A stretch of 64,000 nt of DNA from assembly GCF_006349365.1 (NCBI RefSeq), contig NZ_CP040899.1, positions 124,001 to 188,000 of the forward strand. The letters are read 5' to 3'. The stretch comes from Georgenia wutianyii. Lineage in GTDB: Bacteria > Actinomycetota > Actinomycetes > Actinomycetales > Actinomycetaceae. Under the pieces are notes generated by a model that was not told the origin of the DNA, searched no databases, and was given only the letters and a program-made list of their open reading frames with translations. Shown piece after piece: positions 21,472-60,418 of this stretch; the first letter of the stretch is position 1; the number at the start of each line of letters is the position of its first letter. A program made the position numbers and the translations under genes.

Positions 21472-21476
21472 CCACC

Positions 21477-23860: not shown

Positions 23861-25341
23861 CCACCGTCCTCACGACAGATCCGCGCACGGGTCGGACCGT
23901 GCCCACCCACCTCGAGGAGTCCACGCCCGCCGACGTCCATGCAGCGGTCGCCGCGGCGGTGGACGACACCTCGGTGCTGCGCAGAGCCGGCAGAGATGGC
24001 CGGGCTGCCCTGCTCGACCTCCTCGAGGCGCGCGTGCTCGAGGCCAAGGACGCTCTCGTCGAGACCGCGGCCGGTGAGACCGGACTGCCGACGTCGCGGC
24101 TCAGTGGCGAGGTGGACCGGGCAGCCCACCAGTTCGGGCTCTTCGCGGACGTGCTCCGTGACGGCGGGTACCTCGAGGTCATGGTCGACCACGCGGACGG
24201 TCCCCTCCCCGAGGTGCGGAGGATGCTGGTCCCGGTCGGGCCCGTGGTGGTGTTCGGGGCGAGCAACTTCCCGTTCGCGTTCTCGGTCCTCGGGGGCGAC
24301 ACCGCCTCGGCCCTCGGGGCGGGATGTGGCGTCGTGGCGAAGGCGCACCCAGCGCACCCGCTCACCTCCGCGCTCTCCGCCCGTATCGTCACCGAGGCGG
24401 CGCAGGAGGTGCTCGGAGCCGACGGGCTGCACCTGCTCCACGGCTTCCAGGCCGGGCTCGACGCGGTCCGCCATCCGGCGGCCAGGGCGGTCACCCTCAC
24501 CGGGTCGGTGGCCGCGGCCCGCGGGATCCTCGACGTCATCGCCGAGCGTGAGGAGCCCATCCCGTTCTTCGGTGAGCTGTCCAGCCTCAACCCGCTCGTC
24601 GTGCTCCCGGGGGCGGCGGACAGCCGGGCGGACGACATCGCCCACGGTCTGTTCACGTCGTTCACCGGATCGGGGGGACAGCTGTGCACGAAGCCCGGCT
24701 TCGCCTTCGTCCCCGACACGGAGGCCGGTGACCGGCTCGTCCGCGGTCTGCGGGAGATGGTCGGGCAGGCTCCTGCCACCGTCCTCCTGTCGAGCACGAT
24801 CCGCGAGAGCTTCACCGACGGCGTCGAGGCGCAGGTGGCGGCTGGTGCCGTGCGGGTGGCCTCCTCCCGCCCGGACCCCGCCGGGATCGGCGTCGCCGCC
24901 GAGCTGCTGGAGACCGATGCCGAGCGGCTGGACCCGCAGGACGCGCACGAGTGCTTCGGACCGCTCCTCACCGTCGTCCGGTACCGCGCGACAGGTGAGG
25001 TGGTGCGGGCCCTGCGCGACATGGCGCGGTCGCTGACGGTCTCGATCCATGCCGACGACGTGGACCGTGACGCGGTTGCCGAGGTGCTCGCCGTGGCCAC
25101 CGAGCGGGCCGGCAGGATCGTGTTCGACGGCTACCCGACGGGTGTCCGGGTCTCCTGGGCGCAGCACCACGGCGGGCCGTGGCCGAGCACGAACTCCCAG
25201 CACACGTCGGTGGGTGCCACGGCGATCCGCCGGTTCCTGCGTCCGGTCGCGTTCCAGAACGCCCCGGAGTGGGTGCTGCCCGCCGAGATGAGGGACGACA
25301 GCGAGGTGCCCCGGCGGGTGGACGGCGTGCTCAGGTCCTGA
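23857..25341 (+). CDS. Alpha-ketoglutarate (2,5-dioxovalerate) semialdehyde dehydrogenase
   Basis: 494 residues; GTG 23857 overlaps the previous stop by 4 bases. Aldehyde dehydrogenase superfamily: VVVFGASNFPFAFSVLGGDT (about 128-147, cofactor site), LTGSVAAARG, the catalytic Glu in FFGELSSLNPLVVLPG (about 240), the nucleophile Cys in GSGGQLCTKPGF (about 276), and the C-terminal stretch HHGGPWPSTNSQHTSVGATA typical of KGSADH-type enzymes, which oxidise alpha-ketoglutarate semialdehyde with NAD(P)+. This ends the pathway at alpha-ketoglutarate. It is the last gene of the IclR-controlled operon. Confidence 0.9.
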   Translation: MTTVLTTDPRTGRTVPTHLEESTPADVHAAVAAAVDDTSVLRRAGRDGRAALLDLLEARVLEAKDALVETAAGETGLPTSRLSGEVDRAAHQFGLFADVLRDGGYLEVMVDHADGPLPEVRRMLVPVGPVVVFGASNFPFAFSVLGGDTASALGAGCGVVAKAHPAHPLTSALSARIVTEAAQEVLGADGLHLLHGFQAGLDAVRHPAARAVTLTGSVAAARGILDVIAEREEPIPFFGELSSLNPLVVLPGAADSRADDIAHGLFTSFTGSGGQLCTKPGFAFVPDTEAGDRLVRGLREMVGQAPATVLLSSTIRESFTDGVEAQVAAGAVRVASSRPDPAGIGVAAELLETDAERLDPQDAHECFGPLLTVVRYRATGEVVRALRDMARSLTVSIHADDVDRDAVAEVLAVATERAGRIVFDGYPTGVRVSWAQHHGGPWPSTNSQHTSVGATAIRRFLRPVAFQNAPEWVLPAEMRDDSEVPRRVDGVLRS

Positions 25342-28240: not shown

Positions 28241-28354
28241 CTGGGCAACGTACCAGCAGGTCAGCGCGGTGCGGAGGGTGATGGCGCGACCTGTGTCGAG
28301 GCGGCCCCCGCGAGCCGGGACACACATGTGCAAAAAGAGATATGCGGCTTTTGC

Positions 28355-28390
28355 TTGACGCGCGACGAAAGGCTCCAATACGTTCTCGAA
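28355..28390 (+). promoter_or_regulatory. Promoter of the 28-42 kb sugar operon
   Basis: TTGACG (28355-28360) with a -10 such as ATACGT (28378-28383) at 17-bp spacing. GTTC-TC-GAAC (28382-28391) is a short palindrome at the start point, and GTTGCGAACG follows just inside the gene, so a regulator may bind here. The promoter lies downstream of ATG 28342, which argues that translation begins at ATG 28393. Confidence 0.45.
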
Positions 28391-28392: not shown

Positions 28393-29523
28393 ATGACAGT
28401 TGCGAACGTCACAGTTGACGGGGGGCGCACTGAGGGGTCCGCCACGTCCTACCGCGCCGGGATCATCGGCACAGGCTTCATGGGGGAGGTCCACGCCCGC
28501 GCGATCCGGGTGAACGGCGGCGAGGTCGCCGGGGTCGTCGCCAGCAGCGAGCGGCGGGCCGCCGTCGCGGCCCACACGCTGCTGGCGACCCGCGGGTACG
28601 CCGCCGTCGAGGAGCTGCTCGCCGACGACGCCATCGACGTCGTGCACATCTGCACGCCCAACTACCTGCACTACCCGCTGGCCATGGCCGCCATCGAGGC
28701 CGGCAAGCACGTCGTGTGCGAGAAGCCGCTCGCCACCAACCCGCAGGACGCCGTGCGGATGGCCGAGGCGGTCACCGCCCGGGGCCTGGTCGGCGCCGTC
28801 CCCTTCATCTACCGGTTCCACCCCATGGTCCGGGAGGCGCGCGAGATGGTGCGCTCCGGCGGCCTGGGCCGCGTCGTCCTCGCCCACGGCTCCTACCTGC
28901 AGGACTGGCTCAGCGGCGCCCAGGACGACAACTGGCGGGTCGACGCCCGCCTCGGCGGCGCCAGCCGCGCCTTCGGCGACATCGGCTCCCACTGGTGCGA
29001 CCTCCTCGAGTTCGTCACCGCCGACCCGATCCGCGCCGTCAACGCCCGGAGCGCCACCGTCAACGCCGAGCGTGGGGGGCGCTCCGCCGTCGAGACCGAG
29101 GACGTCGTCGTCCTCCAGTTCGAGACCGAGGGGGGCGTGCTCGGCACCGCGACGGTCTCCCAGGTCTCCCCGGGCCGCAAGAACCGCCTCCTCCTCGAGG
29201 TGTCCGGCTCCGAGGCGAGCATCTCCTTCGACCAGGAGGACCCGGAGAAGCTCTGGGTCGGCGCCCGGCAGGGTTCGCGCCTCCTCGTGCGCGACCCCGA
29301 CGTCCTGTCGGCCGCCGCCGCCCCGTACGCCGGCGTGCCCGCCGGGCACCCGCAGGGCTACCAGGAGTGCTTCGCGAACTTCGTCGCCGACACCGCCCGG
29401 GCCATCGGCGGGCAGACCCCGGACGGGCTGCCCACCTTCGCCGACGGCCTGCGCGCCTGCCGGATCGCCGACGCCGTCCTCCGCTCCGCCGAGACACAGG
29501 CCTGGACCGAGGTCGAGTCGTGA
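28393..29523 (+). CDS. Gfo/Idh/MocA-family sugar dehydrogenase (ThuB/inositol dehydrogenase-like)
   Basis: 376 residues from ATG 28393. The Rossmann fold begins GIIGTGFMGEVHARAI (about 20-35), followed by HICTPNYLHYPLAMAAIE and the family hallmark VCEKPLATNP (about 112-121, Lys of the catalytic dyad). The C-terminal alpha/beta substrate domain includes DIGSHWCDLLEF (about 195-206, catalytic Asp and His). It should oxidise a sugar or cyclitol hydroxyl with NAD(P)+, often at C3. It is the first gene of an operon with an ABC importer, an isomerase and a ThuA-containing protein, a set that recalls ThuA/ThuB 3-keto-sugar metabolism. Confidence 0.9.
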   Translation: MTVANVTVDGGRTEGSATSYRAGIIGTGFMGEVHARAIRVNGGEVAGVVASSERRAAVAAHTLLATRGYAAVEELLADDAIDVVHICTPNYLHYPLAMAAIEAGKHVVCEKPLATNPQDAVRMAEAVTARGLVGAVPFIYRFHPMVREAREMVRSGGLGRVVLAHGSYLQDWLSGAQDDNWRVDARLGGASRAFGDIGSHWCDLLEFVTADPIRAVNARSATVNAERGGRSAVETEDVVVLQFETEGGVLGTATVSQVSPGRKNRLLLEVSGSEASISFDQEDPEKLWVGARQGSRLLVRDPDVLSAAAAPYAGVPAGHPQGYQECFANFVADTARAIGGQTPDGLPTFADGLRACRIADAVLRSAETQAWTEVES

Positions 29524-31031
29524 CCACCGGGGGTCGGGGGGCCCCGCTCCTGCGCATGGAGGGCATCACCAAGTCCTTCTTCGGGGTCCAGGTCCTGTCC
29601 GGGATCGACCTCGAGGTCCGGGCCGGTGAGGTCCACGCCCTCGTCGGTGAGAACGGCGCCGGCAAGTCGACCCTCATGAAGATCCTCGCCGGGGTCCAGC
29701 CCGCCGACAGCGGCACCGTGACCCTGGACGGTGAGCAGGTGAGCTTCGGCCACCCGCTGGAGGCGCAGGCCGCCGGCGTCACCACCGTCTTCCAGGAGTT
29801 CAACCTCCTGCCCGAGCGCACCGTCGCGGAGAACGTCTTCCTCGGCCGGGAGCCGCGGCGCCGAGGCCTCGTCGACCGCGCCCGCATGGTCAAGGACACC
29901 GGTGCGCTCCTCCAGGACCTCGGGGTCGACACGATCTCCCCGCAGGTCAAGGTGCGCAGCCTGTCCGTCGCCGAGCAGCAGGTCGTCGAGATCGTCAAGG
30001 CGATGTCCTTCGACGCCCGCATCATCTCGATGGACGAGCCCACGGCGGCGCTCGCCGACCACGAGGTCGAGCTGCTCTACCGGCTCGTGCGCCGCCTGCG
30101 CGACCGCGGGGTCGCGGTCCTCTACGTCTCCCACCGGCTCAAGGAGATCTTCGACCTGTGCGACCGGATCACGGTCCTCAAGGACGGGAACCTCGTCGCC
30201 ACCGTCGACGCCGCGGACATCACGCCCGACGAGCTCGTCCGCACGATGGTCGGGCGCTCGATCAGCTCGCTGTTCCCCGCGCCCCGCGAGGGCACCTCGC
30301 TCGGCGACGTCCGCCTCACCGTCCGCGGGGCGGGCAACCACATGGTCCGCGACATCGGCTTCGAGGTACGGGCGGGGGAGATCGTCGCGCTCGCCGGGCT
30401 CCAGGGCAGCGGGCGCACCGAGATCGCCCACGGCCTGTTCGGCGTCGACCGCTTCCGCACCGGCGAGATCGAGGTCGACGGCCGCCCCGTCTCCCCGCGC
30501 TCCCCGCGCCAGGCGGTCCGGGCCGGCCTCGCGCTCGTCACCGAGGACCGCAAGGCCGAGGGCCTGGCCCTCAACCAGTCCGTCGTCGCCAACGCCCGCC
30601 TCGTGCTCGACGCCGTCACCCCGCGACGGGCCGCGGAGCGCGCGCGCCGCATCCCCGGGATCCTGTCCTCCCTCGAGCTCACCGCCCGCAGCGGCGGCCA
30701 CGAGGTCCGCTTCCTGTCCGGCGGCAACCAGCAGAAGGTCGTCCTGGCCAAGTGGCTGGTCACCGACCCCCGCGTCATCGTCATGGACGAGCCCACCCGC
30801 GGCATCGACGTCGGGGCCAAGCACGCCGTCTACGAGCTCATGCGCGACCTCGCCGCCGAGGGCGTGGCGATCGTCCTCATCTCCTCCGAGCTGCCCGAGG
30901 TCATCGGCATGGCCGACCGGATCATCGTGCTCCACGACGGCGAGATCAGCGGCGAGCTGCCCGGCGGCTGCGACGAGGAGGCCGTCATGGCCCTGGCCAC
31001 CCGGCACGACACCGTGGAGGAGAGCGCATGA
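29520..31031 (+). CDS. Sugar ABC transporter ATP-binding protein (RbsA type, two ATPase domains)
   Basis: 503 residues; GTG 29520 overlaps the previous stop. The N-terminal ATPase has Walker A GENGAGKST (about 42-50), signature LSVAEQQVVEIVKA and Walker B IISMDEPTAAL. The C-terminal ATPase has a degenerate Walker A (GLQGSGRTE), signature LSGGNQQKVVLAKW and IVMDEPTRGIDVG. The tandem design and the degenerate second site are normal for ribose/xylose/multiple-sugar importers. It energises the two RbsC-like permeases that follow, with a 4-base overlap to the next gene. Confidence 0.95.
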   Translation: MTTGGRGAPLLRMEGITKSFFGVQVLSGIDLEVRAGEVHALVGENGAGKSTLMKILAGVQPADSGTVTLDGEQVSFGHPLEAQAAGVTTVFQEFNLLPERTVAENVFLGREPRRRGLVDRARMVKDTGALLQDLGVDTISPQVKVRSLSVAEQQVVEIVKAMSFDARIISMDEPTAALADHEVELLYRLVRRLRDRGVAVLYVSHRLKEIFDLCDRITVLKDGNLVATVDAADITPDELVRTMVGRSISSLFPAPREGTSLGDVRLTVRGAGNHMVRDIGFEVRAGEIVALAGLQGSGRTEIAHGLFGVDRFRTGEIEVDGRPVSPRSPRQAVRAGLALVTEDRKAEGLALNQSVVANARLVLDAVTPRRAAERARRIPGILSSLELTARSGGHEVRFLSGGNQQKVVLAKWLVTDPRVIVMDEPTRGIDVGAKHAVYELMRDLAAEGVAIVLISSELPEVIGMADRIIVLHDGEISGELPGGCDEEAVMALATRHDTVEESA

Positions 31032-32116
31032 CCGCCCGTCCCGAGGTCGGCACCGCGCCCACCGGCCGACCGCCCGCGCCCCGGCCGATGCCCAGCCGCG
31101 TCTCGGCGCTGCGTCACGTCCCGCTCATCTACGTCGCGCTGCTCATCCTGCTCGTCGTCGCCGCCGTGCTCATGGCGGCCCGCGGTGACAACCTCCTCAG
31201 CGGCGGGTCGATCGTCGACATCCTCACCCGCTCCAGCCTGCTCGGCTTCATCGCGATCGGGCAGACCCTCGTCATCCTGTGCCGCTCCCTCGACCTGTCG
31301 GTCGGGTACGTCGCGGCGCTGAGCAGCCTCGTCGCCGCCGTCGTCATGGACGGGGACCCCTCGCGGATCGTCCTCGGGGTGGCCGCCGCGCTCGGGGTCT
31401 CGGCCGCCGTCGGGCTGTTCAACGGCCTCGTGACGACGAGGCTCGGGGTCCACGCCTTCATCACGACCCTCGGCTCCGGCCTCATCATCAAGGGGTTCCT
31501 CGACACCCGCTACCCCGGCCCGTCCGGGTCGGTCCCCTCCGCCTTCCAGAGCTTCGGGTACACCCGCATCGGGGTGCTGCCGCTGTCGGCGGTCGTCATG
31601 CTCGTCATCGCGGCCGCCGGCGTCGTCCTGCTCCACCGCACCCGCCTGGGGCACTCGATGTTCGCCGTCGGCGGCAACATCGACGTCGCCCGGCTCTCCG
31701 GGATCCGCACCGACCGCACGCTCGTCGTCGCGCACGTCCTGTGCTCCCTCATGGCCGGGCTCGCCGGGCTGCTCCTCGCGGCGCGCTTCAGCACCGGCGT
31801 CGGCGCCCAGATCTACGGCGCCGGGTACGACCTCGACTCCATCGCCGCCGTCGTCCTGGGCGGCACGCTCCTGCTCGGCGGCCGCGGCGGGATCGGTGGC
31901 ACGATCGCCGCCGTCCTCATCCTCGCGGTGCTCGACAGCCTCTTCAACGAGCTGCAGATCAACCCGTTCTTCCGCGACGTCCTGCGGGGAGTCATCATCA
32001 TCGCCGCCGTCGCCCTGTACGCCCGCCGCCAGATCGACCCGAGGAAGGCCAGGGCGCGCTTCCGGGACGTCACCTCCCGGGCAGCCGGGGCAACGAGCCG
32101 AGGAGGCCGCTCATGA
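31028..32116 (+). CDS. Sugar ABC transporter permease (RbsC type) 1
   Basis: 362 residues from ATG 31028, overlapping the ATPase stop. A Pro/Arg-rich cytoplasmic start precedes 8-10 hydrophobic helices. IGQTLVILCRSLDLSVGYVA (about 78-97) and FNGLVTTRLGVHAFITTLGS (about 138-157) are hallmarks of the BPD_transp_2 branch (ribose, xylose, galactose importers). The loop GYDLDSIAAVVLGGTLLLGG near 270-290 is the ATPase contact. It forms a hetero-pair with the next permease. Confidence 0.93.
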   Translation: MTARPEVGTAPTGRPPAPRPMPSRVSALRHVPLIYVALLILLVVAAVLMAARGDNLLSGGSIVDILTRSSLLGFIAIGQTLVILCRSLDLSVGYVAALSSLVAAVVMDGDPSRIVLGVAAALGVSAAVGLFNGLVTTRLGVHAFITTLGSGLIIKGFLDTRYPGPSGSVPSAFQSFGYTRIGVLPLSAVVMLVIAAAGVVLLHRTRLGHSMFAVGGNIDVARLSGIRTDRTLVVAHVLCSLMAGLAGLLLAARFSTGVGAQIYGAGYDLDSIAAVVLGGTLLLGGRGGIGGTIAAVLILAVLDSLFNELQINPFFRDVLRGVIIIAAVALYARRQIDPRKARARFRDVTSRAAGATSRGGRS

Positions 32117-33150
32117 CGACGACGCCGGACCAGGCGGCGCGTCCGTCCGTGCTCGACCGGCTGCGCCGCGCGGGCAGCGGCCCGGTGTTCGTCGTGCTCA
32201 CCGTGCTCGTGCTCGCCATGGCCGTGCTCAACCCCGGCTTCTACGAGCCGCCGTCGCTCATGGCGTTCCTGCGCAACGCGGCCCCGCTCGTCGTCCTCGC
32301 CATCGGCCAGTACTTCGTCATCGTCTCGGGGGAGTTCGACCTGTCCGTCGGCAGCCTCGTCGGGGCGCAGGTCGTCATCGCCGCCCGCCTCATCAACGGC
32401 GAGGAGGACCGCACGTGGCCCGTCATCGCCCTCATGGTGGGCTTCGGGCTCCTCGTCGGCCTCGTCAACGGCCTGGTGACCACCCTCCTGCGGGTCCCCT
32501 CGTTCATCACCACCCTCGGCACGATGCTCGTGCTCTTCGGGGCGATCCGCCTGTGGACCGGCGGCTCGCCCACCGGCGCGCTGTCCGAGGGCTTCCGCCA
32601 GTGGGGCCGGACGGGCATCGACATGCCCGTCCTGCGCCAGCTGCCCTACGCGCTGCTCATCATGGTCGCCCTCGCCGTCGTCGGGATCCTCCTCATGCGG
32701 TCGTCCTACGGCCGGGTGCTCGTCGCGACCGGCGACAACGCCACCGCCGCGACGTACGCGGGCGGACGGGTGTGGCTCGTGCGCACCGGCGCGTTCGTCC
32801 TGTCGGCCCTGTTCGCCACCGTCGCCGGGATCCTCATCGGCGGCTTCGCCGGCGTCTCCGCCCAGGTCGGCCAGGGCCTGGAGTTCACCGCGATCACCGC
32901 GGTGGTCCTCGGCGGGGTGCTCCTCGGCGGTGGCCGCGGCTGGGTCGTCGGCGCGATGGCCGGCGCCCTCACCTACCAGCTGCTCGAGCGGCTGCTCGTC
33001 CAGCTCGACATGCCCTCGACGCTCAACCCGACGATCCAGGGCGTCATCATCATCGCCGCGGTGGCCTTCGCGGCGAACCAGTCGCGCACCCGGCGGGGCA
33101 GGACAGCACCCCAGACGCCTGCCGAGCCGCAGCCCGTGGGAGTCCGATGA
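32113..33150 (+). CDS. Sugar ABC transporter permease (RbsC type) 2
   Basis: 345 residues from ATG 32113, overlapping permease 1 by 4 bases. Hydrophobic helices and BPD_transp_2 motifs: IGQYFVIVSGEFDLSVGSLV (about 65-84), VNGLVTTLLRVPSFITTLGT (about 118-137) and GLEFTAITAVVLGGVLLGGG (about 259-278). It is as close to permease 1 as expected for a heterodimeric channel. The 82 bases after it (33151-33232) contain only the ribosome-binding site of the binding-protein gene. Confidence 0.93.
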   Translation: MTTTPDQAARPSVLDRLRRAGSGPVFVVLTVLVLAMAVLNPGFYEPPSLMAFLRNAAPLVVLAIGQYFVIVSGEFDLSVGSLVGAQVVIAARLINGEEDRTWPVIALMVGFGLLVGLVNGLVTTLLRVPSFITTLGTMLVLFGAIRLWTGGSPTGALSEGFRQWGRTGIDMPVLRQLPYALLIMVALAVVGILLMRSSYGRVLVATGDNATAATYAGGRVWLVRTGAFVLSALFATVAGILIGGFAGVSAQVGQGLEFTAITAVVLGGVLLGGGRGWVVGAMAGALTYQLLERLLVQLDMPSTLNPTIQGVIIIAAVAFAANQSRTRRGRTAPQTPAEPQPVGVR

Positions 33151-33232
33151 CCTGACCCGTGCAGATCTGCGTGCCAGTCCGCCGTCCCGACGACCCGACA
33201 CCCACCACTCATCGCTACCAAGGAGGGTAATG

Positions 33233-34474
33233 ATGCAGCGAACGCTACGCCTGACCGCGGGCCTCCTCGGCCTGGGCCTCGTCCTCACCGCCTGCACGAC
33301 CGACGCACCGACCGAGTCCGCGGACCCCACGCCCGCGGCCACCGAGGCGACCGACGCCCCCACCGACGGCGCCGAGACCACCGGCGGCACCCCCGAGGGG
33401 GAGTTCTTCGTCCGCACCGACTACGAGCGCGAGCTCGCCCAGCGTGACATGACCCCGGAGGGCGACGACGCCACCCCGTGGCTGCAGATGATCGAGCCCG
33501 TCGAGATGGTCGACACCTCCGAGTTCGTCTCCGAGGGCCCCAACACCCTGTGCTTCTCCAACGCCTCGGTCTCCAACCCGTGGCGCGTGACCGGCTGGAC
33601 GACCATGCAGCAGCAGGTCGAGGTCCTCCAGGCCGAGGGCGTCATCGGGGAGTTCCGCGTCGCGGACGCCGCCGACGACGACAACAAGCAGATCTCCGAC
33701 ATCCAGTCCTTCGTCTCCGACGGAGACTGCGACGCGATCGTCATCTCCCCCTCGACGACGGCCACCCTCACCCCGGCCGTCGAGGCGGCCTGCGCGAGCG
33801 GCGCGCCGGTCATCGTCTTCGACCGCGGCGTCAACACCGACTGCGCGGTGACCTTCATCCACCCGATCGGCGGCTACGCCTACGGCGCCTCGGGCGCGGA
33901 GTTCCTCGTGGACAACCTCGAGCCGGGCTCGAGCGTCCTCGCGCTGCGGATCCTGCCCGGCGTCGACGTCCTGGAGCACCGCTGGGGCGCGGCGAACGAC
34001 ATCTTCTCCCAGAGCGACCTCGAGGTCGTCGGGGTGGAGTTCACCGAGGGCGACGCCGCCCGCATCAAGGACGTCGTCACCCAGTACCTCCAGCGCGGGG
34101 ACGTCGACGGCATCTGGATGGACGCCGGTGACGGCGCCGTCGCCGCCGTCGAGGCCTTCGAGGACATGGGCGCGGACTACCCGGTGTTCGTCGGGGAGGA
34201 CGAGCTCAGCTTCATGCGCAAGTGGCAGGAGACCGACATGAACGCCATCGGCCTGAGCTACTCCAACTTCCAGTGGCGCACGCCCGTGCTCGCCGCCCAG
34301 ATGATCTGGGCCGGCGAGGAGGTCCCGGCCGAGTGGGTCCTGCCCCAGCAGCCGGTCACCGAGGACGACCTCGAGGAGTACCTCGAGCGCAACGCCGAGA
34401 TGCCCTCGCTGCACTACGCCAAGTTCGGCGGCGAGGACCTCCCGGGCTACCCGGAGGCGTGGCAGGGCCGGTAG
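33233..34474 (+). CDS. Sugar-binding lipoprotein of the RbsABC-type importer
   Basis: 413 residues from the second of two adjacent ATGs (33233), which is six bases after AGGAGG; the first ATG (33230) is too close. The lipobox LVLTA-C is followed by a Thr/Pro/Ala/Asp-rich linker (about 25-60), then a periplasmic-binding-protein family 4 domain: NTLCFSNASVSNPWRVTGWT (about 103-122), CDAIVISPSTTATLTPAVE (about 164-182), GAPVIVFDRG and DGIWMDAGDGAVAAVEAF. It captures the substrate outside the membrane for the permeases. The long acidic linker is typical of actinobacterial binding proteins crossing the wall. Confidence 0.92.
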   Translation: MQRTLRLTAGLLGLGLVLTACTTDAPTESADPTPAATEATDAPTDGAETTGGTPEGEFFVRTDYERELAQRDMTPEGDDATPWLQMIEPVEMVDTSEFVSEGPNTLCFSNASVSNPWRVTGWTTMQQQVEVLQAEGVIGEFRVADAADDDNKQISDIQSFVSDGDCDAIVISPSTTATLTPAVEAACASGAPVIVFDRGVNTDCAVTFIHPIGGYAYGASGAEFLVDNLEPGSSVLALRILPGVDVLEHRWGAANDIFSQSDLEVVGVEFTEGDAARIKDVVTQYLQRGDVDGIWMDAGDGAVAAVEAFEDMGADYPVFVGEDELSFMRKWQETDMNAIGLSYSNFQWRTPVLAAQMIWAGEEVPAEWVLPQQPVTEDDLEEYLERNAEMPSLHYAKFGGEDLPGYPEAWQGR

Positions 34475-34485
34475 GCCACCGCACC

Positions 34486-34524
34486 CCGCTGCGGGACGCC
34501 CCGGGGGGTGGCGTCCCGCAGCGG
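34486..34524 (+). terminator. Hairpin after the binding-protein gene
   Basis: CCGCTGCGGGACGCC (34486-34500) pairs with GGCGTCCCGCAGCGG (34510-34524), a perfect 15-bp stem with a 9-base loop. A second perfect stem lies at 34529-34548. As in the other transport operon, a strong hairpin directly follows the binding-protein gene and may limit read-through into the isomerase gene. Confidence 0.7.
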
Positions 34525-34570
34525 TCCTGCCGGGCACCGGTGCCCGGCCCGACGACGAAGTGGATGGACG

Positions 34571-35428
34571 ATGACGTCTCGCCCGATCGGCGTGAACACG
34601 TGGGTGTGGACCTCGCCGCTGACCGACGAGTCCCTGCGGCGCCTGGCCCCCAGGGTCCGGGACTGGGGCTTCGACCTCATCGAGCTGCCCGTCGAGCACC
34701 TCGGCGACTGGGACCCGCAGGCCGCCGCGCGGCTGCTCGCCGACCTCGGCCTGGGCGCCACCGTCACCCTCGTCATGGGGGAGGGCAGCGAGCTCGTCGC
34801 CACCGACGCCGAGACCGTGCGCGCCACGCAGGACTACCTGCGGGGCGTCGTCGACGCCGCGCACGCCGTGGGCTCCCCGGTCATCGCCGGGCCGGCCTAC
34901 GCCTCGGTCGGGCGCACGTGGCGGATGGGTGAGGAGGAGCGGCGCCGCTGCTACGCCGAGCTCGCCGAGAACCTCGCGCCCGTCGCCGAGCACGGGCGCC
35001 AGGCCGGGGTGCGGATCGCCGTCGAGCCGCTCAACCGGTACGAGACGTCGCTGCTCAACACCGTGGACCAGGCACTGGAGGCGCTCGCCGCGCTGCCCGA
35101 CGTCGGGCTCCTCCTCGACGTCTACCACCTCAACATCGAGGAGCGGGACGTGCCCGCCGCGATCCGGCGCGCCGGATCGCGCATCGCCCACGTCCAGGTG
35201 TGCGCCAACGACCGCGGCGCCCCCGGCGCCGACCACCTGCCCTGGCCGCAGATCCTCGCGGCCCTCGACGACGCCGGGTACACCGGCCCGCTGTGCATCG
35301 AGTCCTTCACCGGGGAGAACGAGACCATCGCGACGGCCGCCTCCATCTGGAGGCCGCTCGCCGTCACCCAGGACGCCATCGCCGTCGATGGCCTGGCCCA
35401 CCTGAAGGGACTGATGCCGCGGAGCTGA
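34571..35428 (+). CDS. TIM-barrel sugar isomerase/epimerase (D-tagatose/psicose 3-epimerase-like)
   Basis: 285 residues from ATG 34571. AP endonuclease 2-like TIM barrel: IGVNTWVWTSPL (start), IAVEPLNRYETSLLNT (about 155-170, metal-binding Glu), LLLDVYHLNIEERD (about 187-200, Asp and His ligands), HVQVCANDRGAPG (His) and GPLCIESFTG (second Glu). The Glu-Asp-His-Glu metal set fits ketose 3-epimerases and YcjR-like 3-keto-glucoside epimerases. It would shift stereochemistry at C3 of a ketose or keto-glycoside in the cytoplasm, which fits the Gfo/Idh dehydrogenase encoded upstream. Confidence 0.87.
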   Translation: MTSRPIGVNTWVWTSPLTDESLRRLAPRVRDWGFDLIELPVEHLGDWDPQAAARLLADLGLGATVTLVMGEGSELVATDAETVRATQDYLRGVVDAAHAVGSPVIAGPAYASVGRTWRMGEEERRRCYAELAENLAPVAEHGRQAGVRIAVEPLNRYETSLLNTVDQALEALAALPDVGLLLDVYHLNIEERDVPAAIRRAGSRIAHVQVCANDRGAPGADHLPWPQILAALDDAGYTGPLCIESFTGENETIATAASIWRPLAVTQDAIAVDGLAHLKGLMPRS

Positions 35429-35492
35429 CGGGGGGACCGCCCGGCGACGGGCGGCTGGACGCACACAGTCTCGACCAGGAGGAACCACACTC

Positions 35493-38400
35493 ATGAGCAC
35501 TGCACGCCCCGGCTGGGGACGGGCGGTGGCCTCGGTGTCTGCCGGCGCGCTAGGTCTGACCTTGCTCGCCGCGCTACCCGCCGCCGCCGACACCGTCCCG
35601 GCCCTGGACATCATCGACACGCGGGAGGGCGAACGGGCAGACGTCCTCGTCTTCACCGCCACCGCGGCCTGGCGCCACGGTGACACCATCGAGCAGGGCA
35701 CCCCGCTGCTGCTCGACGCCTTCGCCGCCGAGGGCATCGGCTCGGTCTGGACCGAGGACCCGGAGATCTTCACCGACGAGGGGCTCGCGCAGTTCGACGC
35801 CCTCGTCATGTTCCAGACCTCCGGCGACCCGTGGACCGAGGACCAGAAGGCGGCCCTGGAGGCCTACCAGCAGGCGGGCAACGGCATCGTCGCCATCCAC
35901 AACGCCACCGACATGCGCGGCGACTACGCGTGGTGGGACGAGCTCGTCGGCTCCCTCATGCCCGGCCACGCCGCCACCGGCACCGACCCGGGCCTGCCCG
36001 GCACCGTGCGCGTGGAGGACCGCGCCCACCCCTCGACCGAGCACCTGCCCCAGCGCTGGGAGCGCGCGGACGAGTGGTACAACTTCTCCAACAACGTCCG
36101 CGGCACCGCCCACGTCCTGGCGACGATGGACGAGACGACGTACGCGCCGGGTGGCAACGCCATGGGCTACGACCACCCGATCTCCTGGTGCAAGCTCTAC
36201 GACGGCGGACGCGCCTGGGCCACCGGCATGGGCCACTTCCCCTCCCACTTCCAGGAGCCCGAGCTCGTCGGGCACATCCTCGGCGGCGTCGAGTGGGCAG
36301 CGGGCCTGGCCGAGGGTGACTGCGGCGGCACCGACTGGAGCATGTACGAGCGCGTCGCGCTCGACCAGAACACCTCCGCCCCCTTCGGGATGGACATCGC
36401 CGAGGACGGCCGGGTCTTCTTCACCGAGCTCGTCCGCGGCCAGGTGCGGGTCTACGACCCCGCCTCCCACACGACGACGACGGCGCTGGAGCTCGACGTC
36501 TACTCCGGCGGTGAGGACGGGCTGCTCGGCATCGCGCTGGCCAACGACTTCGCCGACAGCGGTCACCTCTACCTGTACTACTCCCCGGCAAGCGAGGACG
36601 ACACCGACCCGGCGAACTTCGTCAACGTCCTGTCCCGCTTCACCATGGACCACTCGACCGGGCTCATCGAGCCGGACACCGAGCGCGTGCTGCTCGAGGT
36701 GCCGGCGCGGCGCCTGCCCGACGAGCCGGGCCACACCGGCGGCGTCGTCGAGATCGACGCGGAGGGCAACCTCTTCCTCGGCGTCGGCGACGACGTCAAC
36801 CCGCACTCCGAGCCGTCGGGCGGCTACGCCCCGATCTCCGAGCGCGACGGGCAGTTCCACGACGCCCGCGCGACGTCGGCCAACACCAACGACCTGCGCG
36901 GCAAGATCCTGCGGATCACGCCGCTGGAGGACATCGCCCCGGACGCCGAGCCGGGCGCAGGCAGCACGTACACGATCCCGGAGGGGAACATGTTCCCCGT
37001 CGGCACCGAGAAGACGCTGCCCGAGATCTACGCGATGGGCTTCCGCAACCCCTTCCAGTTCGCCATCGACCCGGTGACCGGCAACCTGTCGCTCGCCGAC
37101 TACTCCCCGGACAACGGCAACGACAACCCCACGAACCGCGGCCCGGCGGGCATCGCCGAGTGGATGATCGTCGAGGAGCCAGGCTTCTACGGCTGGCCGC
37201 TGTGCATGGGTGACAACGAGCCGTTCCGCGACGTCGACTACCGCACCAACCCGGTGACGGTCGGGGAGTTCTTCGACTGCGACGCACCGGTCAACGACTC
37301 GATCCACAACACCGGTCTCACCGAGCTGCCCCCGGCCGTCGCGCCGGACATGTGGTACGGCTACCAGCGTGCCTCCCACCCCGAGATCGTCACCCAGGGG
37401 GGCGGCCTGGCCCCGATGGGTGGCCCGTTCTACCGGTTCGACCCCGAGCTGGAGTCCGACACCAAGTTCCCCGAGTACTTCGACGGGCAGCCGTTCTTCT
37501 TCGAGTGGGCCCGCAACACGATGTACTCGATGCTCCTCACCGAGGACGGCAGCGGGCTGGAGAAGGTCAACGCCTTCCTGCCCTCCGAGCCGTTCATGGC
37601 GCCCATCGAGGCGAAGTTCGGCCCCGACGGGTCGATGTACGTCCTGGACTGGGGCGGCGGCTTCGGCCGGCACAACCCCGACTCCGGCCTGCACCGGATC
37701 GACTACGTCACCGGCTCCCGCTCCCCGTCCGCGGTGGCCACGGCCACGCCGGACAGCGGCCAGGCGCCGCTCGAGGTGACCTTCGACGGCTCGGGGAGCA
37801 CCGACCCCGAGGGTGAGGACCTCACCTACGCGTGGGACTTCGACGGGGACGGGGAGACCGACTCCACCGAGGTCAGCCCGACGACGACCTACACCGAGAA
37901 CGGCGTGTACGACGCCCGCCTCACCGTCACCGACCCGCACGGCAAGGTCGGCACGACGACCGTCCCGGTCACCGTCGGCAACACCCGCCCCGACATCCGC
38001 TTCACCATGCCGCCGACCGGCGCGTTCTTCGACTTCGGCGACACGATCACGTGGGACATCGAGGCGAGCGACGCAGAGGAGGAGATCGCCGACGCGGACA
38101 TCATCGTCCAGCCGGCCCTCGGCCACGACGGCCACGCCCACCCGGCCGAGCCGTTCACCGGGCGCACCGGCTCGGTGACGACGAGCCTGGGCGGCGGGCA
38201 CAGCGACGACATGAACGTCTTCTACGTGCTCGACGCGCGGTACCAGGACTCCGGCGGCGACGGCGTCCCGAGCCTCGTCGGCCAGGACACCTCGCTGCTC
38301 TTCCCCAAGGCTCGCGAGGCCGAGTTCCACACGGACTCCGAGGGCACCACCACCGCCCCGTCGCGCGACGTCGAGGGCCACGGCACCTCGATCAGCGGCC

Positions 38401-41400
38401 AGGGCGGGGCGTGGGCCTCCTACGACCCGGTCAACCTCGTCGGGGTCGACCGCCTGCTCCTGCGGGTCGCCTCCGCGACCGGCGGGGACGTCGAGCTGCG
38501 GCGCGACGCCCCGGACGGGGAGCTGCTCGCCACCGCGAGCGTCCCGTCGACCGGCGGGCTCGCGCGCTACACCGACGTCCCGGTGGAGCTCGCCGACCCG
38601 GGCGAGTCCTTCACCCTGTACGTCGTCTTCCCCGGTGACGGGGAGATCCGGCTCAACTTCATCGAGGCGGACGGCAAGGGCGTCTCCCCGACGACCAAGC
38701 CGCGCGTCACCATCACCGCCCCGGTCGCCGACGAGTCGCTCGAGCCGGGAACCGTCACCGTCACCGCGGACGCCGAGGACGCCGAGAACGAGATCACCCA
38801 GGTCGAGTTCTTCGTCGACGGGCAGTCCATCGGGGTCGACACCGAGGCGCCCTACGGCGTCACGTGGGACATCACCGAGGAGTCGGTCTTCCAGCTCACC
38901 GCCGTCGCGACCAACGACAACGGCGTCTCGACGACGTCGCGCATCGTGCCCGTGACCGTCGGTGAGCCGTTCGGCGACTTCAGCCAGTTCACCAACGCCC
39001 GCGGCCAGTTCGACCGCGGTGAGGACGGCTCGTTCGTCATCACCTCCGGCGGGGCGAACATGTGGAACGCCGCCGACGAGTACAGCTCGCTGTACCTGCC
39101 GGCCGGCGCGGACGAGAACTGGTCGGCGACCGTGAAGATCGTCAGCCAGGGCAACTCGCACGGCAGCGCCAAGGCCGGGCTCATCGTCCGCAACGACATC
39201 ACCGCGCCCGGGCAGTCCCCCGGCTACGCGGCGCTCGGCATCCGCCCCAGCGGCGGGTTCGAGTGGCTGCGCTCGGCCAACGGCAACGGCCAGCTCAACG
39301 CCTCGACCGGGTCCGGCTCCACCGCCTACCCCGCGTGGGTGCGCATCGTGCGCGACGGGGCGGAGTACACCGCGTTCCACAGCACCGACGGCGTGACGTT
39401 CACGCAGATCGGCGAGCCGGTCACCCTGCCCGGCGCCGCGTCGGTGCAGGACCTCGGGCTGTTCGTCACCGCGCACCACGCCACTGCGACGAGCGAGGTC
39501 GTCTTCAGCGACTTCGTCTTCGACGACGACCCGACCTCGCCCGGACCTGACCCGGAGCCGGGCCCCGGCCCGGTGTGCCCGGTGAGCATGAGCGACGAGT
39601 TCGACGGCGAGCTGGACCCGCGGCGCTGGCCGACGGTCCGGTCCGCCGAGGGCGCGCCGGTCACCGTCGCCGACGGTGCCCTGCACCTGCCGGTGACGGG
39701 CAGCGACATCGACGGCGCCAACGCCGGTGACATCAGCTTCGTCGGCCGGCCGGTGCCGGCCGGGGAGTGGCAGGTCGACACGACGGTCACCCTCGAGCAC
39801 GAGCGTCACTGGCAGTACGCCGGTCTCATGCTCCACACGACCGACGACGACTACACCAAGCTGACGTTCACCAAGCACCAGGACGGCAGCCGGTTCCTCG
39901 AGTACTGGACCGAGGCAGGCGGGTCGCGCACCGAGCACGCCCCGAACCTCACGCTCCCGGCCGACGCGCCGGCCACCGTGCACCTGCGGCTGACCAGCGA
40001 CGGGCAGGACGTGATCGCGGCGTACTCGCTCGACGGGGAGTCCTTCACCGCGCTCGACGGCGCGGCGACGCTCGACCCCGGGGCGAGCATCGGCGTGGTC
40101 GCGGCCGGTGACACGGGCACGCCCGACGCCGTCGCCGTCGTCGACCACGTCCGGTTCACCCCGGACCGGGAGGACGACGGGCAGCGCGAGCCGGACGACG
40201 AGTTCGACGGCGACGCGCTGGACGGGTGCCGCTGGGACGCCACGGTGCGGTACGTGGAGGAGAACCTCTCCGTCTCCGACGGGGAGCTCCACATCACCAC
40301 CGCGCCGGGCGACATCGACAACGCCAACCCCCTCTCGCCGGAGAACTTCGTCCTGCAGACGGCGCCGGAGGGTGACTGGACCGTGGAGACGCGGTTCCAC
40401 GCGCCCCTCGCGCACCGCTGGCAGTACGCCGGCCTGCTCGCCTACGGGAGCGACGACGAGTACGTCAAGCTCGACGTCGTCGCGCGCAACGAGCCGGGGC
40501 AGCCGCTCTCGCTGGGCGCCGAGCTCGTCTCCGAGGTCGGCGGGTCCTTCGGGGCCGGCGGCAACTCGGCGATCGACCTCGCGGGGAACCCCGAGGGCGA
40601 GTACTGGCACCTGCGGCTGAGCCGCACCGGTGACAGCTACGAGGGCTGGGTGAGCGAGGACGGGGAGACCTGGACCTCCCTCGGCAGCCCGGTGACGCAC
40701 GCGGGTGACCTCTCGGCCGTCGGCCTCGTCGCCGTCGGCCCGCAGCAGACCGAGCCGGTGACGGTGAGCTTCGACTGGTTCCGGGTGACCGGCGGCGACG
40801 TCGAGCCGCCCGTGGACGAGGAGGCGCCCACCGTCGAGGGCAACGTCCTGGGCACCTCCCGCGGGGAGTTCCACCCCACGGACCGCACCGACCTGGACAT
40901 CGCCGGCACCGCGACGCTGGTGAAGTCCTCGGGCCGCACCGACGTGTCGGTCCGGGTCACCGGGCTGCCGGGGGGCGCGGAGTACCCCGCGCACCTGCAC
41001 GACGGTGCGTGCCACGACCACGGCGGGCACTACATGCACGACCCGGACGGCCCGATGGCCCCGCCCAACGAGATCTGGGCGACCTCGGGCAGCGACCCGC
41101 GCGGCGGGCTGGTGCCCAACCAGCAGGGCGTGGCGATCGGTTCCGGTGGGGCGACGTGGGTGGCCCGGCAGCAGCCGCTGTCGATCATGATCCACGAGCC
41201 CGAGCTGCCCGGCCTGCCCATCGCGTGCGCCGACTTCTCGGCCTACGAGGCACCGGCTCGCCTGGTCCTCGCGGCCGACGACGGCGAGGGGTCGGGCGTC
41301 GAGACGCTCGAGTACTCCCTCGACGGCGGGGAGTGGGTCGCCTACGCGGGCGCCGTCGAGGTGTCCGCGCCGGGCGAGCACACCGTGGCCTTCCGGGCCA

Positions 41401-41978
41401 CGGACGCGGCCGGCAACACGAGCGAGCAGGGTGAGCTCACCTTCACCGTCGCCGGTGAGGAGCCGGCCGAGGTCACGCCCGCGCCGGTGACGTTCACCGA
41501 CGAGGACGGGACCGCGGACGACACGTACACGATCCCGGCGGTCGAGGGCGTGGAGTACGTCGTCGACGGTCAGGTCGTCGCGGCGGGCACCTACCCGGGC
41601 AGCGGGACGGTCACCGTCACCGCCCGCGCCGCCGAGGGCTACGAGCTCGCCGAGGGCGCGGTCACCGAGTGGAGCCACGCCTTCGCCACGGGCGGCGGGA
41701 CACCCGCGGACCCGACCGAGGCGCTGGCACAGCTCTCCGGGGCGCTCGACCGGCACGTCGCCTCCGGCGCCGTCGCCGGGCCGATCGCCCGCCAGCTGGC
41801 CCACACGCTCGAGCTGGCCGAGCGCCACCTCGAGGCGGGGCGCGAGCAGCAGGCGCGGGGTGCGCTGGACCGGTTCGTCCGGCACCTCGAGCACCCGACG
41901 CGGCCCGACACGCTCCACACCGAGGCGCGTGAGGACCTGCACGCGCGGGTGGAGGTGATCCTCGGCCTCCTCGGCTGA
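35493..41978 (+). CDS. Giant secreted ThuA / PQQ-type sugar dehydrogenase / multi-lectin / SOD-like protein
   Basis: 2161 residues; AGGAGG at 35478-35483. Reading by similarity: signal peptide 1-32; ThuA-like domain about 47-273 (VLVFTATAAWRHGDTIEQG, WCKLYDGGRAWATGMGHF); glucose/sorbosone dehydrogenase propeller about 286-740 (GEDGLLGIALAND, HTGGVVEIDAEGNLFLGVGD, MGFRNPFQFAIDP); PKD about 744-828; CBM6-like about 930-1066; Ig-like about 1070-1158; three concanavalin-like/DUF1349-type domains about 1160-1348, 1362-1558 and 1566-1768; a Cu/Zn-SOD-like domain about 1783-1918 (His1834, His1836, Cys1840, His1901, Cys1912); an OmpL47-like Ig domain about 1921-1988; and a C-terminal FIMAH-like helical domain about 2075-2161. 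It should oxidise and bind a polysaccharide or glycoside outside the cell. It closes the importer/dehydrogenase operon. Confidence 0.87.
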   Translation: MSTARPGWGRAVASVSAGALGLTLLAALPAAADTVPALDIIDTREGERADVLVFTATAAWRHGDTIEQGTPLLLDAFAAEGIGSVWTEDPEIFTDEGLAQFDALVMFQTSGDPWTEDQKAALEAYQQAGNGIVAIHNATDMRGDYAWWDELVGSLMPGHAATGTDPGLPGTVRVEDRAHPSTEHLPQRWERADEWYNFSNNVRGTAHVLATMDETTYAPGGNAMGYDHPISWCKLYDGGRAWATGMGHFPSHFQEPELVGHILGGVEWAAGLAEGDCGGTDWSMYERVALDQNTSAPFGMDIAEDGRVFFTELVRGQVRVYDPASHTTTTALELDVYSGGEDGLLGIALANDFADSGHLYLYYSPASEDDTDPANFVNVLSRFTMDHSTGLIEPDTERVLLEVPARRLPDEPGHTGGVVEIDAEGNLFLGVGDDVNPHSEPSGGYAPISERDGQFHDARATSANTNDLRGKILRITPLEDIAPDAEPGAGSTYTIPEGNMFPVGTEKTLPEIYAMGFRNPFQFAIDPVTGNLSLADYSPDNGNDNPTNRGPAGIAEWMIVEEPGFYGWPLCMGDNEPFRDVDYRTNPVTVGEFFDCDAPVNDSIHNTGLTELPPAVAPDMWYGYQRASHPEIVTQGGGLAPMGGPFYRFDPELESDTKFPEYFDGQPFFFEWARNTMYSMLLTEDGSGLEKVNAFLPSEPFMAPIEAKFGPDGSMYVLDWGGGFGRHNPDSGLHRIDYVTGSRSPSAVATATPDSGQAPLEVTFDGSGSTDPEGEDLTYAWDFDGDGETDSTEVSPTTTYTENGVYDARLTVTDPHGKVGTTTVPVTVGNTRPDIRFTMPPTGAFFDFGDTITWDIEASDAEEEIADADIIVQPALGHDGHAHPAEPFTGRTGSVTTSLGGGHSDDMNVFYVLDARYQDSGGDGVPSLVGQDTSLLFPKAREAEFHTDSEGTTTAPSRDVEGHGTSISGQGGAWASYDPVNLVGVDRLLLRVASATGGDVELRRDAPDGELLATASVPSTGGLARYTDVPVELADPGESFTLYVVFPGDGEIRLNFIEADGKGVSPTTKPRVTITAPVADESLEPGTVTVTADAEDAENEITQVEFFVDGQSIGVDTEAPYGVTWDITEESVFQLTAVATNDNGVSTTSRIVPVTVGEPFGDFSQFTNARGQFDRGEDGSFVITSGGANMWNAADEYSSLYLPAGADENWSATVKIVSQGNSHGSAKAGLIVRNDITAPGQSPGYAALGIRPSGGFEWLRSANGNGQLNASTGSGSTAYPAWVRIVRDGAEYTAFHSTDGVTFTQIGEPVTLPGAASVQDLGLFVTAHHATATSEVVFSDFVFDDDPTSPGPDPEPGPGPVCPVSMSDEFDGELDPRRWPTVRSAEGAPVTVADGALHLPVTGSDIDGANAGDISFVGRPVPAGEWQVDTTVTLEHERHWQYAGLMLHTTDDDYTKLTFTKHQDGSRFLEYWTEAGGSRTEHAPNLTLPADAPATVHLRLTSDGQDVIAAYSLDGESFTALDGAATLDPGASIGVVAAGDTGTPDAVAVVDHVRFTPDREDDGQREPDDEFDGDALDGCRWDATVRYVEENLSVSDGELHITTAPGDIDNANPLSPENFVLQTAPEGDWTVETRFHAPLAHRWQYAGLLAYGSDDEYVKLDVVARNEPGQPLSLGAELVSEVGGSFGAGGNSAIDLAGNPEGEYWHLRLSRTGDSYEGWVSEDGETWTSLGSPVTHAGDLSAVGLVAVGPQQTEPVTVSFDWFRVTGGDVEPPVDEEAPTVEGNVLGTSRGEFHPTDRTDLDIAGTATLVKSSGRTDVSVRVTGLPGGAEYPAHLHDGACHDHGGHYMHDPDGPMAPPNEIWATSGSDPRGGLVPNQQGVAIGSGGATWVARQQPLSIMIHEPELPGLPIACADFSAYEAPARLVLAADDGEGSGVETLEYSLDGGEWVAYAGAVEVSAPGEHTVAFRATDAAGNTSEQGELTFTVAGEEPAEVTPAPVTFTDEDGTADDTYTIPAVEGVEYVVDGQVVAAGTYPGSGTVTVTARAAEGYELAEGAVTEWSHAFATGGGTPADPTEALAQLSGALDRHVASGAVAGPIARQLAHTLELAERHLEAGREQQARGALDRFVRHLEHPTRPDTLHTEAREDLHARVEVILGLLG

Positions 41979-54222: not shown

Positions 54223-54307
54223 GGTAGCGTGTCCGAGCGGCCGAAGGTGCAGCACTCGAAATGCTGTGTGGTGCAAGCCACCGTGGGTTCAAATCCCACC
54301 GCTACCG
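54223..54307 (+). tRNA. tRNA-Ser (anticodon CGA)
   Basis: An 85-nt class II tRNA. GGTAGCG (54223-54229) pairs with CGCTACC (54300-54306). The anticodon loop CTCGAAA gives CGA, the variable arm is long, and the T arm is GGGTTCAAATCCC. A -10 element TACACT lies at 54207-54212. It is the third serine isoacceptor gene in the window. Confidence 0.96.
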
Positions 54308-54312
54308 CCACC

Positions 54313-55484: not shown

Positions 55485-57010
<1,526 letters not shown>

Positions 57011-57303: not shown

Positions 57304-60418
<3,115 letters not shown>

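Follow-up and report, generated by a model that had tools for sequence, protein, structure and literature searches.

The actinobacterium Georgenia wutianyii carries, in the 64,000-nucleotide stretch of its genome analyzed here (contig NZ_CP040899.1, positions 124,001 to 188,000; hereafter the window), a cluster of seven genes that ends in a giant protein with both a ThuA domain and a GSDH propeller. Judged from sequence, gene context and predicted structure, with a probability of roughly 0.6, this ThuA-GSDH protein would oxidize sugar units of a glycan outside the cell, partner proteins would cleave the oxidized glycan in trans, and an importer of the CUT2 family would carry the oxidized sugar to a cytoplasmic TIM barrel and a Gfo/Idh enzyme. 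The oxidation is probably at C3, and polysaccharide feeding of this kind would likely start with oxidation instead of hydrolysis. We consider oxidized-sugar metabolism with the oxidation step outside the cell the best reading because the gene neighborhood is conserved, the propeller keeps its active-site residues, 3-keto-cleaving domains occur in paralogues and some orthologues, and a relative of a 3-keto-glucal hydratase is encoded in the same genome. A first-pass annotation of this DNA had likewise suggested oxidation outside the cell and import of the product; that part stands as the preferred interpretation of the sequence, while its direct link to rhizobial ThuA/ThuB and its comparison with YcjR are not supported.

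Organization and conservation of the cluster

All seven genes lie on the forward strand and together span positions 28393 to 41978, as the first-pass annotation had it. The Gfo/Idh, RbsA and two RbsC genes overlap consecutively by 4 bases each, in agreement with the tight overlaps through the second permease that it had described. Further downstream, gaps of 79, 96 and 64 bases precede the genes for the sugar-binding protein (SBP), the TIM barrel and the ThuA-GSDH protein, respectively. The importer fits the CUT2 (ribose) type, with a double-domain ATPase, BPD_transp_2 permeases and a Peripla_BP_4 binding protein. The ATPase scores 535-495 bits with the AraG, XylG and RbsA models, every one below its cut-off. 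The SBP has a lipobox, LTAC (read by eye), and its PDB relatives (best 60.6 bits) are too distant to name a ligand.

A scan of one genome per species returned 275 loci with a ThuA-GSDH relative, of which the best 80 are the named loci used below. Gene order was counted on the upstream side only, in the 71 named loci with at least 7.6 kb of upstream DNA. In 51 of these, RbsA, RbsC, RbsC, SBP and TIM genes stand directly before the ThuA-GSDH gene on the same strand and in an order identical in all 51, and 41 of them also have a Gfo/Idh gene upstream. The ordered loci come from Micromonospora, Actinophytocola, Jiangella, Cellulosimicrobium, Oerskovia, Promicromonospora, Microbispora, Motilibacter, Salsipaludibacter and others. 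The first-pass annotation had proposed a search for the gene set in other actinobacterial genomes; since the same order recurs so widely, the cluster is beyond chance. The 20 loci without any importer or TIM genes upstream all belong to Agromyces, Nocardioides or Solirubrobacter, and in at least one of them (L086, Agromyces) the genes stand downstream instead.

The SBP and the ThuA-GSDH segment, each at E<=1e-60, also occur together: among 295 other genomes of the class, 37 have both, 10 the SBP only, 30 ThuA-GSDH only and 218 neither (odds ratio 27, Fisher p 9e-20, kinship ignored). Of the 49 SBP matches, among which the window's own is counted, at least 32 are less than 5 kb away from a ThuA-GSDH match, at least 31 of them at 0.95-1.4 kb; this count used 42 ThuA-GSDH match positions and scored at most three candidates per genome, and the share that is not near may be too high.

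The ThuA-GSDH protein and its propeller

The protein begins with a Sec-type signal (by eye), and Pfam finds ThuA (195.6 bits) and GSDH (83 bits) besides PKD, CBM6, Big_7, GH43_C2, DUF1349 and FIMAH domains, which bears out the earlier description of a 2161-residue secreted fusion of ThuA with a sugar-dehydrogenase propeller. The domains include Ig-like ones, and the concanavalin-like domains comprise two that were matched and a third seen by eye. CBM6 and the concanavalin-like domains would anchor the protein on a glycan, perhaps, to judge from their folds, one that is xylan- or beta-glucan-like. Orthologues in G001-G005 and G007 are 80-85% identical.

The propeller has the sGDH/Asd fold, and its closest folds are the pyrroloquinoline quinone (PQQ) sugar dehydrogenases 3a9g, 2ism, 3das and sGDH. 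Residues H414, R518, N519, G550 and P551 align with the catalytic His, the PQQ-contacting Arg-Asn pair and the Gly-Pro of the calcium site in sGDH. They are unchanged in 53 of 53 sequences, paralogues included, so that, of the PQQ/substrate residues whose loss the first-pass annotation had named as a refutation, these five are retained. Two electrons would pass from the sugar to the propeller, where scavenged PQQ is the presumed acceptor. The residues before the catalytic His are CCH in all 26 paralogous propellers (rows 28-53 of alignment A2, from L041, L040, L042, L044, L056, L071 and other paralogue loci) and PGH in the 27 window-type ones; the adjacent cysteines of the former may possibly form a vicinal disulphide at the cofactor. 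A fused cytochrome c was considered and rejected, CxxCH being absent from the window protein and from 128 ThuA/GSDH proteins in the loci; some JGI names of relatives say 'cytochrome c'.

Between the recognized domains, a GHD.H.H motif after the PKD domain recurs in 12 of 12 window-type proteins (alignment A1) and 25 of 33 paralogues (A5). For the His-rich residues 1777-1905, a Cu/Zn-SOD- or CHRD-like identity was dropped, as no PDB relative was found (best E 0.21), and low TM-score Foldseek matches of the 1035-residue C-terminal part to complement proteins were taken as beta-sandwich noise. The protein by itself is already present in databases: it has 1485 relatives at E<=1e-30, and the 120 of these matches that were listed either lack a name or have one such as 'glucose/arabinose dehydrogenase', 'ThuA domain-containing protein' or 'PKD domain-containing protein'; the closest come from Georgenia.

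Enzymes of the window cluster and of a second importer cluster

The best NCBIfam model of the window Gfo/Idh protein is levoglucosan dehydrogenase, at 177 bits, far below the cut-off of 650, and its PDB relatives include 6a3f (146 bits), presumably a levoglucosan dehydrogenase as well. It is predicted, as the likely function, to be a 3-keto-sugar reductase. The window TIM barrel has no signal peptide (by eye). Of the two kinships given in the first-pass annotation, which had called it a psicose-epimerase/YcjR-like isomerase, the first holds, in that the D-tagatose/D-allulose 3-epimerases are nearest (123.6 bits), while the second was rejected at 39.6 bits to 6wn6. The metal ligands of these epimerases are Glu, Asp, His and Glu. 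In the window barrel E152, D183, H186, Q209, R215 and E244 are invariant in 60 of 60 aligned rows (some rows are duplicates); E152, D183 and E244 thus keep their counterparts, and because Gln209 replaces the metal-ligand His, also in 60 of 60 rows, the protein is not classed as an epimerase.

The window cluster holds no 2-hydroxy-3-keto-glucal hydratase; a relative sits at 675 kb in a second importer cluster (Table 1). This protein, TIM9, scores 143.5 bits with the hydratase 8ro4 and is closer to 2zds (546 bits), which was deposited as a 'putative DNA-binding protein'. TIM9 is also found in 17 of the 80 named loci. The second cluster's Gfo/Idh protein aligns along its full length with levoglucosan dehydrogenase and scores 371.6 bits, against the same cut-off of 650.

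Cleavage domains in paralogues and orthologues

The host genome encodes six paralogous GSDH proteins, which with the window's make a family of seven, and besides these a ThuA-only protein at 724 kb and GSDH proteins outside the family, two over the cut-off (84.6 kb, 1.528 Mb) and one weak (2.99 Mb). Six of the seven have a bond-cleaving partner, either a PF06439 domain or an eliminase-type TIM barrel, fused or adjoining. PF06439 is named after 3-keto-disaccharide hydrolases. The genome has five PF06439 domains over the cut-off, four in or beside GSDH proteins and the fifth fused to an eliminase-like TIM barrel. One polypeptide (L044:5218-9828, genome 1.403-1.408 Mb) unites the GSDH propeller with two PF06439 domains and a cupredoxin; another, at 612 kb (L164:4697-9160), combines PA14, CBM35, PF06439, TIM barrel and FIMAH and has no GSDH domain.

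In the C-terminal stretch where the window protein has FIMAH, its orthologues in the congeners G001-G004 carry a PF06439-type domain (Pfam was run on P0004, the G. satyanarayanai orthologue; for G001, G003 and G004 the domain was called with a custom profile). The orthologue of the sister genus (G007) has an eliminase-like TIM barrel in the same stretch, and P0008 a PF01261 barrel in the corresponding one. Two unrelated cleavage folds thus swap in one slot. Across the loci, with five duplicates dropped (L059, L061, L064, L090, L055), a PF06439-type or eliminase-like TIM domain is fused to 17 of the 46 paralogues, and for 12 others such a domain is encoded by a gene no more than 3 kb away; ten of the 46 are truncated at a locus end and one is a ThuA-only protein, and an 'adjacent' gene may itself be another GSDH gene. 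The 33 paralogues left after removal of these and of two near-duplicates have GSDH (33), ThuA (19), PF06439 (11), PF01261 (4) and cupredoxin (2) domains.

Among known structures, the secreted TIM barrels resemble 8tcs, 8tct and 8tcd (E ~4e-25), which probably come from Nasseri et al. (Nature 2024). The Nature article is cited in PMC13273386. The barrels keep an HxH pair, Asp, His and Glu, with Asp-His and His-Glu spacings (26 and 44) equal to those of AtOGE, while the HxH-Asp spacing differs (37 vs 31). AtOGE (D163, H189, E233), in the excerpt of the paper used here, eliminates 3-keto-glucosides with H134 as base (PMC10628242). PF06439 or eliminase-like TIM domains of this architecture would cut the 3-keto-glycoside, and for the window protein the cut would be made in trans, because it has no cleavage domain itself.

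Some further sequences lie around the family. At 2.568 Mb of the genome (L010) a frame with one internal TAG gives a 55% match to residues 1767-1993 of the window protein. A membrane-anchored-looking protein with the His-rich tail GHVHVFLPxRPG follows the ThuA-GSDH gene or tandem pair in 21 loci (L071, L079, L105 and 18 others), and the single one run through Pfam had no match. Two conserved neighbor proteins gave, by Pfam, no match in one case and Big_13 under the cut-off in the other.

Copper proteins

A Tat-type (by eye) two-domain multicopper oxidase (PF07731/PF07732; L043:7513-8532, genome 2.6275 Mb) is encoded between the operator described below and a ThuA-GSDH-PF06439 gene, and a multicopper-oxidase/ThuA-GSDH pair recurs in G001-G004. 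Together with the cupredoxin domain fused to one paralogue of the host genome (1.406 Mb), the oxidase is a candidate electron sink, and the electrons of the propeller would leave by way of these copper proteins.

A shared operator

Comparison, across families, of the DNA upstream of 20 main-cluster loci and of two paralogue operons of the host genome yielded an element, exact in not all of them, that consists of CTTTTG-N-TTGAC and, after it, an inverted half-site; together they form an imperfect palindrome that spans a -35-like TTGAC box. In the window it ends 21 bases before the Gfo/Idh start. Its 12-mer CTTTTGNTTGAC has five exact matches in the 3.45-Mb genome, all of them upstream of operons of the system, namely the window operon, the 656-kb ThuA-GSDH gene, the 670-kb RbsA gene, the 2.34-Mb GSDH gene and the 2.627-Mb multicopper-oxidase/ThuA-GSDH pair. 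Of the 31 exact matches in 14 other genomes, every one likewise sits before such an operon (12 at main clusters, 5 at second importers, 10 at GSDH genes and 4 at multicopper-oxidase/ThuA-GSDH pairs), and the reversed pattern has none; eight of the 14 genomes are of one genus, where the 8 main-cluster assignments go solely by how far the site lies from the SBP (4.8-5.2 kb). Sites before GSDH or multicopper-oxidase genes, 3 of the 5 in the host genome and 14 of the 31 elsewhere, are independent because such sites were not used in deriving the element. Allowing one mismatch adds two off-target sites and one, 662390, that lies upstream of a ThuA-GSDH gene, against 6 for the reversed control.

One operator thus marks importer operons and GSDH loci as a single predicted regulon. 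The 670-kb operon has a divergent ROK gene beside it, as does the main cluster in several other genomes, for which reason a ROK repressor is the likely reader of the operator through which the system would be controlled.

Table 1. Location and content of the features discussed. Positions are those of the window, unless given in kb or Mb of the genome.
Feature	Location	Strand	Evidence or content
Promoter/operator element CTTTTG-C-TTGAC...GACGAAAG	28348..28371	+	Upstream-DNA comparison
Gfo/Idh/MocA oxidoreductase, 376 residues	28393..29523	+	PF01408, 101 bits
RbsA/AraG-type double ABC ATPase, CUT2 sugar importer	29520..31031	+	Two ABC_tran stretches (Pfam)
RbsC-type permease 1	31028..32116	+	PF02653, 130.7 bits
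RbsC-type permease 2	32113..33150	+	PF02653, 117.7 bits
Lipoprotein sugar-binding protein, Peripla_BP_4	33230..34474	+	PF13407, 99.7 bits
TIM barrel, ketose-3-epimerase superfamily	34571..35428	+	PDB D-tagatose 3-epimerase, 123.6 bits
Giant multidomain ThuA-GSDH protein, 2161 residues	35493..41978	+	Last gene of cluster
ThuA domain, residues 51-269	35643..36299	+	ThuA fold and Pfam score (PF06283)
GSDH propeller, residues 285-740, predicted sugar oxidase	36345..37712	+	PF07995
PKD domain, residues 745-828	37725..37976	+	Pfam
His-rich stretch, ~residues 834-935, possible metal site	37992..38297	+	GHDxHxH...GGH
CBM6, residues 942-1051	38316..38645	+	
Two concanavalin-like domains, ~residues 1362-1768	39576..40796	+	GH43 beta-xylosidase accessory-domain type
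Second His-rich stretch, residues 1777-1905	40821..41207	+	HLHDGACHDHGGHYMHDP
FIMAH domain, C-terminal, residues 2079-2157	41727..41963	+	PF22888, 60.4 bits
GSDH paralogue	650 kb		Two fused TIM barrels
GSDH paralogue	656 kb		One fused TIM barrel
GSDH paralogue	662 kb		Lipoprotein PF06439 gene immediately upstream
Second importer cluster	668-676 kb		ROK regulator, RbsA, a permease, SBP, Gfo/Idh, TIM9
GSDH paralogue	1.406 Mb		Two PF06439 and plastocyanin-type cupredoxin fused; adjoins RbsA, two permeases, distant Gfo/Idh
GSDH paralogue	2.340 Mb		Tat-type (by eye) TIM barrel in adjoining gene
GSDH paralogue	2.629 Mb		PF06439 fused; multicopper oxidase gene upstream

Elsewhere in the window, a separate operon at 20844-25341 encodes an enolase-superfamily enzyme, a fumarylacetoacetase-like protein and an aldehyde dehydrogenase, perhaps for sugar-acid catabolism. 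In the region 54223-60000 the G+C content drops from ~74% to 57% after a tRNA-Ser (54223-54310), and this may be an integrated island.

Weighing the explanations

After oxidation and cleavage outside the cell, the product would enter through SBP-RbsC-RbsC-RbsA, a route whose family is plain and whose ligand would be the oxidized sugar; the hydratase-like TIM9 of the second cluster, the window TIM barrel and the Gfo/Idh enzyme would then restore a common sugar. The weakest step is oxidation at C3 as opposed to C1, followed by what the importer carries. Several observations count against this account. Characterized GSDH enzymes oxidize C1 of free sugars, and we know of no member that oxidizes C3. 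Pfam finds neither PF06439 nor an eliminase-like barrel, that is no 3-keto-glycoside hydrolase or eliminase, in the seven proteins of the cluster. Among 81 window-type proteins only 5 include a cleavage domain in the same polypeptide, with a gene for one within 3 kb in 8 more, and none of the 12 proteins of alignment A1, the window's among them, has one. The host genome has 16 PF01261 matches, and because TIM barrels are this common a nearby cytoplasmic one says little. PF06439 also covers an endo-xanthanase/lichenase (PMC9007349, excerpt) and for that reason is no proof of 3-keto chemistry. The ThuA-GSDH protein is found without this SBP in 30 of the 295 genomes and the SBP without it in 10, and the 1.406-Mb locus, the richest fusion, has no exact operator match. 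PqqE is not found over the cut-off in the host genome, but neither did any control genome exceed it, and PqqC matched in no genome scanned and is therefore uninformative.

The oxidation might instead be intracellular: an intact glycoside or anhydrosugar would be imported, Gfo/Idh would oxidize C3 and the TIM barrels would eliminate and hydrate, with the ThuA-GSDH protein in some other surface job. Such a pathway has a precedent in the levoglucosan cluster of Bacillus smithii, where a binding protein, an ATPase, two permeases and four Lgd enzymes are described, in the part of the paper compared, as leading from levoglucosan to glucose (PMC7676230), and it would suit the 10 SBP-only genomes, of which, among the matches listed, G255, G280 and G335 retain the importer genes with adjoining TIM and TIM9. 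It accords poorly with a ThuA-GSDH match 0.95-1.4 kb from at least 31 of the 49 SBP matches, with the operator that GSDH genes and importer operons have in common, and with the secreted cleavage domains of the paralogues, and we regard it as rather unlikely. The C1 chemistry of sGDH, Asd and AA12 is the obvious default for the propeller, since its closest folds (3a9g, 2ism, 3das, sGDH) are PQQ sugar dehydrogenases with known activity at C1; reducing ends would then become aldonolactones and the importer would take aldonic acids or relatives. In support of this, a secreted fungal PQQ enzyme with a carbohydrate-binding module exists (PMC4133262, excerpt). The seven cluster proteins, by Pfam, include no lactonase or aldonate enzyme, while PF06439, eliminase-like TIM and hydratase-like TIM9 proteins recur around the GSDH family, which makes C1 oxidation improbable here. 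That the propeller has lost PQQ altogether and serves as a glycan-binding or scaffold module is more doubtful still. The region of sGDH with Lys377, Arg406 and Arg408, further PQQ contacts, has no reliable profile alignment to the window propeller. Human HHIP, to which the module would be likened, shares the fold and the putative catalytic His, yet several of its PQQ-binding residues are missing, according to the excerpt used (PMC4133262). Both points also weigh against the preferred account. Against a non-redox role stand the constancy of the five active-site residues in all 53 sequences, paralogues included, and the copper redox partners nearby.

A fuller form of extracellular oxidation, that co-regulated giant secreted quinoproteins oxidize polymer-bound sugars at C3, pass the electrons to copper proteins and O2, have the 3-keto product hydrolyzed or beta-eliminated in the same or a neighboring polypeptide and feed a dedicated importer of keto-sugars or keto-glycals, is put forward tentatively, at somewhat less than even odds.

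Relation to known systems and significance

The published systems are compared here on the basis of excerpts. In Caulobacter, LacABC carries out a periplasmic oxidation, the proposed agent of cleavage is a DUF1080 protein, and the later steps fall to a transporter, epimerases and a reductase (PMC9007349). The actinobacterial system resembles it in oxidation outside the cytoplasm, in the cleavage family (DUF1080 is PF06439) and in the logic of a transporter followed by sugar enzymes. However, LacABC is a membrane-bound dehydrogenase of a Gram-negative periplasm acting on disaccharides (PMC9007349), whereas its actinobacterial counterpart is a ThuA-GSDH protein that bears a secretion signal as well as carbohydrate-binding modules and is combined with a CUT2 importer. 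The levoglucosan pathway LgdA-LgdB1-LgdB2-LgdC shares Gfo/Idh and sugar-isomerase-type enzymes and an ABC importer with two permeases, and the second cluster's Gfo/Idh protein is a full-length relative of its dehydrogenase; it differs in the NAD-dependent oxidation by LgdA, and its cluster legend names no GSDH oxidase (PMC7676230). Agrobacterium AtOGE shares the HxH-D-H-E pattern with the secreted TIM barrels, and TIM9 is a relative of the hydratase 8ro4; AtOGE is a TIM-barrel dimer without other domains (PMC10628242), while the eliminase-like barrels here are fused to or stand beside GSDH proteins with secretion signals. Since C3 oxidation is a prediction and the window cluster has no cleavage enzyme, the system is likened to the Caulobacter and Lgd pathways and membership is not claimed.

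With soluble PQQ sugar dehydrogenases (sGDH, Asd, Streptomyces Adh 3das, AA12) the protein has in common the propeller fold and the catalytic His, Arg-Asn and Gly-Pro positions; in the open-licence literature we found none fused to ThuA or to a 3-keto-glycoside-cleaving domain, and no link of ThuA or GSDH propellers to PF06439. The rhizobial thuEFGKAB system has a ThuA domain and a Gfo/Idh enzyme as well, and 3-keto derivatives have been proposed for it. Its ThuA is small and cytoplasmic and its importer has a MalK-type single-domain ATPase, whereas in the window a giant protein has ThuA at its N-terminus, and the ATPase is RbsA-type with two ABC domains. The direct tie to rhizobial trehalose use that the first-pass annotation had drawn is unsupported because the importer is of the RbsA/CUT2 type. 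What is new is the signal-bearing ThuA-GSDH oxidase, its cleavage and copper fusions in relatives, the CUT2 route and the regulon.

Pathways through 3-keto-glycosides are a recent addition to carbohydrate biology, and those in the papers compared use NAD or flavin enzymes that are cytoplasmic or periplasmic. With its regulon element and its interchangeable cleavage modules, the proposed system lends itself to direct tests. If it is true, a large class of actinobacterial proteins now named only 'ThuA domain-containing', 'PKD domain-containing' and the like would gain a function, the GSDH fold would acquire a new regiochemistry, and actinobacterial genomes would hold many candidate oxidase-plus-eliminase enzymes for glycans. 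A further route for cutting polysaccharides would then stand beside glycoside hydrolases, polysaccharide lyases and lytic polysaccharide monooxygenases (LPMOs).

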